From an uncultured Geobacteraceae bacterium (GTDB lineage: Bacteria; Desulfobacterota; Desulfuromonadia; Geobacterales; Pseudopelobacteraceae), in contig CAIOXL010000109.1 in assembly GCA_903862245.1 (NCBI GenBank), positions 1-42,900 on the forward strand: DNA of 42,900 nucleotides, given 5' to 3'. The translations under genes and the position numbers were made by a program. Positions 38,080 through 38,231 of this stretch are shown one piece after another (the first letter of the stretch is position 1; every line of letters starts with the position of its first letter). Below the pieces are notes generated by a model, which saw only the letters and a list, made by a program, of their open reading frames with translations, was not told where the DNA came from and searched no databases.

Positions 38080-38231
38080 AAAAAAAAAGGGACAGTCCGC
38101 TGCTGTTGAATTAACAACCAGGGGAACCTGTTCCTTCGCCAACCCGGCTATCCTGAACTCCCAGGAACTACTCAGGACCCGCGGCTTTGTGCCCCCAGGT
38201 CACCCTGGGTTTACCTCTTCGGAAACAGCAC
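38080..38231 (-). promoter_or_regulatory. GEMM-I cyclic-dinucleotide riboswitch with terminator platform
   Basis: Read on minus, the leader has the class I GEMM core: GAGGTAAACC, then P2 CCCAGG-GTGA-CCTGGG with a GNRA loop, GGCACAAAGCC, P3 TCCTGA/TCAGGA followed by TAGCCGGGTTGGCGAAGG. P1 forms from CTGTTTCC (38228-38221) and GGAACAG (38134-38128). The same GGAACAG strand lies within AAGGAACAG (38136-38128), which can pair with CTGTCCCTT (38095-38087; one A-C mismatch) just before nine T (38088-38080), making a terminator. Ligand-stabilised P1 would prevent termination, predicting an ON switch for the Ig/DUF4082 gene. Whether the ligand is c-di-GMP or 3',3'-cGAMP was not decided. Confidence 0.88.

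Follow-up and report, generated by a model that had tools for sequence, protein, structure and literature searches.

A GEMM-I leader with a purine at pocket residue 92 and a P1 strand shared with a predicted terminator upstream of a secreted surface protein in Geobacterales

The discovery of cGAMP signalling in Geobacter goes back to GEMM-I riboswitches in which one base of the ligand pocket, residue 20, is changed. The GEMM-Ib cGAMP riboswitches of Geobacter (pgcA/GSU1761) have A20 together with C92 and follow an ON logic upstream of surface and extracellular proteins. In the available text of PMC9262584, the pilM riboswitch of Geobacter metallireducens is a cGAMP ON switch whose ligand-bound form pairs strand P with strand A and whose terminator uses strands A, T and H. 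According to the same text, residue 92 (Vc2 numbering) is a C that forms a Watson-Crick pair with the ligand in both Cd1 and pilM, where it is C75; the accessible part of PMC9049102 describes C92 as less conserved than A47. The class I fold is also found in two Rfam variants, c-di-GMP-I-UAU (RF03168), with consensus U20 and U92, and c-di-GMP-I-GGC (RF03167), with consensus G47 and C92, and the triplets in these names appear to correspond to consensus residues 20, 47 and 92.

We analyzed a leader on the minus strand of a 42,900-nucleotide stretch (the window) from an uncultured Geobacteraceae genome (2.92 Mb in 204 contigs, 92.65% complete). A covariance-model search matched RF01051 (Rfam c-di-GMP-I, which includes Vc2 and Cd1) at positions 38225-38135 with 58.1 bits (E = 6.1e-9; gathering score, 35), the alignment spanning the model from its first through its last position, and the Rfam covariance models gave no second match over gathering in the whole window. 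The Infernal check proposed in the first-pass annotation thus bore out the class I GEMM fold it had claimed, and the core elements GTAAACC, GNRA-capped P2, CACAAAGCC and TAGCCGGGTTGGCGAAGG were located where it had placed them. P2 occupies 38209-38194, with the GNRA loop GTGA at 38203-38200, and P3 occupies 38186-38141. A47, which lies between the two ligand bases by stacking in Vc2, was assigned by alignment to 38188 and is A in all 115 distinct rows of the alignment described below. The interhelical residues C44 (38191) and G83 (38148) are both invariant in an alignment of 14 leaders from 13 genomes and are assumed to pair as in the available descriptions of the family. The window therefore shows the family features of RF01051, namely a score over gathering, a GNRA-capped P2, A47, and C44 with G83. 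Residues 20, 47 and 92, the three that contact the ligand, are numbered by what we take to be the Vc2 positions, cross-checked against the Rfam consensus lines and the published passages available.

The pocket differs from those of the known systems above. Residues 20, 47 and 92 of the window read G/A/G. In J1/2, alignment gave G at 38217 (about position 18), A at 38216 and G at 38215 (position 20), and position 92, which is C in canonical c-di-GMP and cGAMP members, is a G at 38139 that appears as a mismatch in the RF01051 alignment. The window thus has the G20 of the c-di-GMP-binding GEMM-Ia aptamers, but their C92 is replaced by G, as C75 of the cGAMP-sensing pilM riboswitch is. The cGAMP marker A20 of GEMM-Ib is absent, so that the window aptamer is not of the usual cGAMP type of Geobacter; and because residue 92 is G rather than C, the cyclic dinucleotide to be sensed cannot be assumed to be c-di-GMP. 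We accordingly rejected the duality between cGAMP and c-di-GMP by residue 20 alone that the first-pass annotation had implied, because residue 92 also differs. Its structural reading is right and its observation is confirmed, its interpretation is partly supported, and the interesting part is residue 92, which it had left unremarked.

Two assignments to named variants were also rejected. In a permissive scan of 401 bases, RF03168 ranked above RF01051 within the clan, but its 57.3 bits lay below its gathering score of 65.9, and the window has G20 and G92 where the RF03168 consensus has U20 and U92. RF03167 was rejected because the window has A47 and G92 against its consensus G47 and C92. Two copies at another locus (L047; 496-574 and 2777-2855, minus strand) reach 66.7 bits against the RF03168 gathering score of 65.9 despite G20 and G92, and Rfam would therefore label both as UAU. 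The G92 variant of the pocket was not found under a name in Rfam or in the literature searched, where nothing was found for C92G; Kellenberger 2015, Nelson 2015, Weinberg 2017 and Ren 2015 might contain it.

We next consider the strand that connects this aptamer with termination. The P strand, CTGTTTC (38228-38222), recognized from the sequence and from comparison of the leaders, is the 5' strand of the outer P1 helix and is able to pair with GGAACAG; it is invariant in the 14-row leader alignment, but the search pattern for those rows demanded CTGTTTC. The A strand, AAGGAACAG (38136-38128), is the 3' strand of P1 and is also able to pair with the H strand, CTGTCCCTT (38095-38087), with one A·C mismatch in the window copy. 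Nine T follow (38088-38080), so that positions 38095-38080 contain the 3' arm and tail of an intrinsic terminator. A single strand serves both as the 3' side of P1 and as the 5' terminator arm, as on the pilM-type platform.

A search with the subtype pattern found 19 sites in 15 of 141 genomes of the order, which yielded 18 distinct leaders. The predicted minimum free energy (MFE) fold was the terminator, without P1, in all 18, with 8-9 A-H pairs and T runs of 7-9, and forcing the five outer P1 pairs cost 2.6-11.4 kcal/mol across the set; these MFE folds differ from the Rfam P3, and the energy model knows no ligand. The terminator hairpin of the window had a folding energy of -16.3 kcal/mol (z = -2.04; 6 of 200 shuffled sequences were equally good), and its whole leader was without unusual stability (z = -1.08; 29/200). 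Because these single-sequence statistics are modest, the claim of a shared strand is carried by the comparative evidence from the 18 leaders. The arms also covary: the A strand is GAGAAACAG in six leaders, and the H strand is CTGTTTC in 6/6 of these and in 2/12 of the others. At least five predicted A-H pairs were found in 17/20 G92 rows, 3/5 A92 rows, 9/63 G20/C92 rows, 1/13 U92 rows and 2/10 A20/C92 rows of the wider alignment, where a missing or earlier T run was scored as a miss. Counting against the scheme, transcripts that end 20 bases beyond the A strand had P1 in their MFE fold in only 8 of the 18 leaders; the window was not included, its GGAA pairing with UUCC. A window transcript of 106 bases did form P1 with 7 pairs.

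With the A-H terminator in 18/18 relatives and the nine T in the window, the earlier proposal that a P1 strand doubles as a terminator arm holds. The strand swap and its mechanism are not new, since the available text of PMC9262584 already presents the shared strand for pilM. Without ligand, the A strand is predicted to join the H strand in an intrinsic terminator. With ligand, the aptamer would keep the A strand paired to CTGTTTC in P1, terminator formation would be blocked, and the secreted fn3/Big_7/DUF4082 surface protein would be made. The pilM riboswitch, as far as that text describes it, has the same P/A pairing with ligand and the same passage of the A strand into the terminator without it; since the pilM layout is an ON switch, the predicted ON direction is likely the one for the window. 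The ON switch that the first-pass annotation had predicted follows from the shared strand and agrees with pilM, and its dependence on a ligand is what we infer. We consider it fairly probable that the leader controls a surface protein as a transcriptional ON switch of the pilM kind whose pocket has been remodelled, and that it represents a Geobacterales subtype with G or A at residue 92 (R92). On the 3' side of the terminator (38088-38045, minus strand), GCTC and the T run can fold back on GAGC and an A-rich stretch (-11.1 kcal/mol, z = -1.03), and a similar GCTC...GAGC arrangement follows the T run in several relatives; this fold might shield read-through mRNA.

The gene behind the leader encodes a large secreted Ig/DUF4082 protein, as had been claimed. 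The ORF (38009-35172, minus strand) has 945 amino acids, with Pfam domains fn3, Big_7 (five stretches) and DUF4082 (two stretches); an N-terminal hydrophobic stretch was read by eye as a signal peptide, and AAAGGAG (38023-38017) is the likely ribosome-binding site. Within the DNA examined, a readable ORF with a plausible ribosome-binding site lies behind 17 of the 18 subtype leaders. The target is conserved: sixteen of these 17 ORFs share a related secreted fn3-type N-terminus, as judged by reading and confirmed with Pfam for five besides that of the window, and the remaining one encodes a GH26 glycosidase. Other R92 leaders precede polysaccharide-lyase-like proteins (L132, L242), a Big/Glucodextran_B protein (L228), an ABC exporter (L227), a Big_7 protein (L241) and ORFs without a Pfam match (L229, L244); behind one R92 leader (L157) no ORF was found. 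Our literature search found no report of DUF4082 together with a riboswitch.

An intrinsic terminator with a 13-pair stem and a T-rich tail was detected by a terminator scan at 38433-38402 (minus strand). It closes the upstream gene, which suggests that the window leader has its own promoter; a promoter/terminator scan found no sigma-70-like promoter for this leader. At about 38260-38240 (minus strand), CGATAGTAT or a close form lies approximately 25 bases before P1 and is kept in many leaders, and this region may belong to the leader promoter. The upstream gene itself (40100-38469, minus strand) encodes a Big_2-repeat protein with a lipoprotein-like start and its own terminator behind it. Elsewhere in the window, a response-regulator-like ORF (33320-32847, minus strand) starts with a Gln-Ala repeat run (about 33290-33250) encoded by a simple hexamer DNA repeat, which is perhaps variable in length.

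To place residue 92 among its relatives, we aligned 124 aptamers of the order with Infernal. In the 115 distinct rows, residues 20/47/92 were G/A/C in 63, G/A/G in 20, G/A/U in 13, A/A/C in 10, G/A/A in 5 and other combinations in 4, so that R92 appeared in 25/115 (20 G and 5 A); because the rows were taken from the top of a list ranked by subtype similarity, these shares are biased toward the subtype. We also took a census in four genomes selected on grounds other than the subtype, although G039 among them has it; 69 of 71 sites were aligned. The combinations were A/A/C in 41, G/A/C in 16, G/A/U in 5, G/A/G in 2, G/A/A in 2 and others in 3; R92 was therefore present in 4/69, of which one G/A/A row (L312) scores under the Rfam cut-off and is possibly misaligned. 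R92 is a minority type among the GEMM-I aptamers of the order. Aptamers with G20/U92 are fairly common there (13/115 and 5/69) and precede varied kinds of genes (L261/L131, L252, L262, L272, L311 and others).

The subtype pocket is marked by G, more rarely A, instead of C at residue 92 and by G two bases before residue 20, at about position 18. The latter was present in 21/25 R92 rows compared with 3/89 other rows with a readable residue 92 (24 in total); since the rows are related and Fisher tests treat them as independent, such tests of these associations serve for orientation only. G20 and A47 are kept in 25/25 R92 rows, and residue 90 tracks residue 92, with C90 in 5/5 A92 rows and T90 in 20/20 G92 rows. 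The effective sequence number of the aligned rows was 21.6 with 80%-identity weights. Columns of the P3 loop match position 18 in mutual information with 92, a value confounded by relatedness and by gappy P3 columns. Pairing between residues 18 and 92 was rejected, the combinations being chiefly A/C, C/C and G/G. L013/L128 has the P strand of the window and a subtilase and Big_7 target, but C at both 18 and 92; compared with it, the pocket change at 18 and 92 is clean, as read from the aligned sequences. This change is conserved within the subtype, and it is presumably under selection.

GEMM-I aptamers were present in 58/58 genomes of the relatives search, and R92 occurs in several genera belonging to two or more families. 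The source genome has four GEMM-I aptamers: that of the window, one on contig 160, and a tandem pair of A20 aptamers on contig 30 before an ORF with CxxCH-like haem motifs (identified by eye). Scanning 395 genomes of the phylum with an R92 pattern gave 28 loci in 22 genomes, and the subtype model matched only that of the window and three of G039; a reversed control pattern likewise gives scattered matches, and the remaining loci therefore look like chance. No R92 aptamer was found outside the order in these 395 genomes with this pattern, which holds several bases constant and would overlook divergent forms. In a genome contig collection, a pattern scan gave 12 stretches, whose carriers were Geobacter sp. 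OR-1, other Geobacter, Desulfuromonadaceae, and Deltaproteobacteria or Proteobacteria MAGs.

We further examined 25 homologue loci that hold the N-terminus of the target. GEMM-I lies directly upstream in 18, with R92 in 9, A20 in 9 and G20/C92 in none; six had no GEMM-I over gathering in the examined flank, and one (L055), with 11 upstream bases only, was left unjudged. L054 and L059, whose aptamers lie behind the gene, were not counted as having an upstream GEMM-I. Given the 16/69 of G20/C92 in the census, 0/18 would be an event of about 1% for independent loci, but these loci are not independent. L044, one of the nine R92 loci, has R92 and A20 aptamers in one leader, and elsewhere (L126/L142; G129) an R92 and a G20/C92 aptamer form a tandem. 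On the Geobacter sp. OR-1 contig that also holds L099 (L123, G052:C26; 1321-1745, minus strand), one leader contains two A20 aptamers and one G92 aptamer and precedes a single fn3/Big_7 gene; it is possible that this three-aptamer leader forms a two-signal gate. At a further locus (L057, 966-1042), a GEMM-I aptamer upstream of a homologue has T at residue 20, and its neighbour has A.

Using the Hypr signature given in the available text of PMC6456294, we classified the GGDEF domains of the source genome: one is of the Hypr type (GHxxGS, GGDEY), three have the canonical Asp (GHxxGD), and one is divergent. Both c-di-GMP and cGAMP are therefore likely present. The Hypr-type domain (L249, G000:C194), which carries Ser instead of Asp together with GGDEY, is likely to be the cGAMP synthase of this genome.

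As to the ligand, we regard it as possible, though short of probable, that the replacement of C by G or A at residue 92 is a recoding, such that c-di-GMP is no longer read and another dinucleotide is sensed, either cGAMP in reversed orientation or a G-plus-pyrimidine type not known in the order. In Geobacterales, such sensing would be coupled to glycan enzymes and to secreted surface proteins of the Ig-like kind, sometimes as a two-input gate with cGAMP aptamers in one leader.

Alternatively, the leader may be an ordinary c-di-GMP riboswitch, in which G92 reads the second guanine by non-Watson-Crick contacts (e.g. Hoogsteen), as G20 reads the first, and the pocket change is a matter of tuning. 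This explanation is credible, if doubtful. It fits G20 and A47, which are those of c-di-GMP members, the three canonical GGDEF domains, and the tandem of R92 with G20/C92. Moreover, U92 is common (13/115) and C92 is less conserved than A47 in the part of PMC9049102 available, so that a changed residue 92 does not by itself imply a new ligand. The Watson-Crick pairing of residue 92 with the ligand in Cd1 and pilM, and the absence of G20/C92 from the 18 homologue loci with upstream GEMM-I, argue against it.

The reversed orientation of cGAMP, one of the two forms of recoding, would have G20 read the G and residue 92 (a purine here and U in other members) read the A. The same protein family stands under A20, cGAMP-type aptamers at 9/18 loci and under R92 at the other nine; L044 has both, and the OR-1 leader joins two A20 aptamers to one R92 aptamer. 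The source genome likewise contains the Hypr-type GGDEF domain and, elsewhere, the A20 tandem. However, a plain U92 would read A better, purine-purine pairing at 92 is unproven, and, with A20 at 41/69 and G20/C92 at 16/69 in the census, the lack of G20/C92 from 18 related loci is weak evidence. We consider this form unlikely on balance.

The second form, a different cyclic dinucleotide such as G plus a pyrimidine, seems to us improbable. G92 and A92 would both pair with U, and G92 with C, in line with the interchange of G92 and A92 before the same kind of gene (A92 in L119 and L120), and 3',3'-cyclic UMP-GMP is described as the product of the CD-NTase BdCdnG in the accessible text of PMC10442399. 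No source enzyme was seen, however: no SMODS-type CD-NTase was found in the source genome, and among the 12/138 genomes with one, only G013 and G039 belong to the 15 subtype carriers. A CD-NTase as a general source of a new ligand is therefore unsupported. The strict coupling of A92 with C90 and of G92 with T90 might reflect local geometry instead. Finally, decay of the aptamer before a working terminator, for which loss of the ligand-pairing base would be the expected outcome, is very improbable: among the 14 leaders, which come from 13 genomes, 57/101 positions are invariant, 20 distinct rows share the change at 92, and the terminator is intact in 18/18.

In the R92 leaders of Geobacterales, a second ligand-contacting base, residue 92, is changed, and the change is conserved ahead of a defined group of secreted proteins. 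Should the ligand differ, R92 aptamers would point to a further dinucleotide signal or to a second way of reading cGAMP, and they would be ready-made sensors for finding it.
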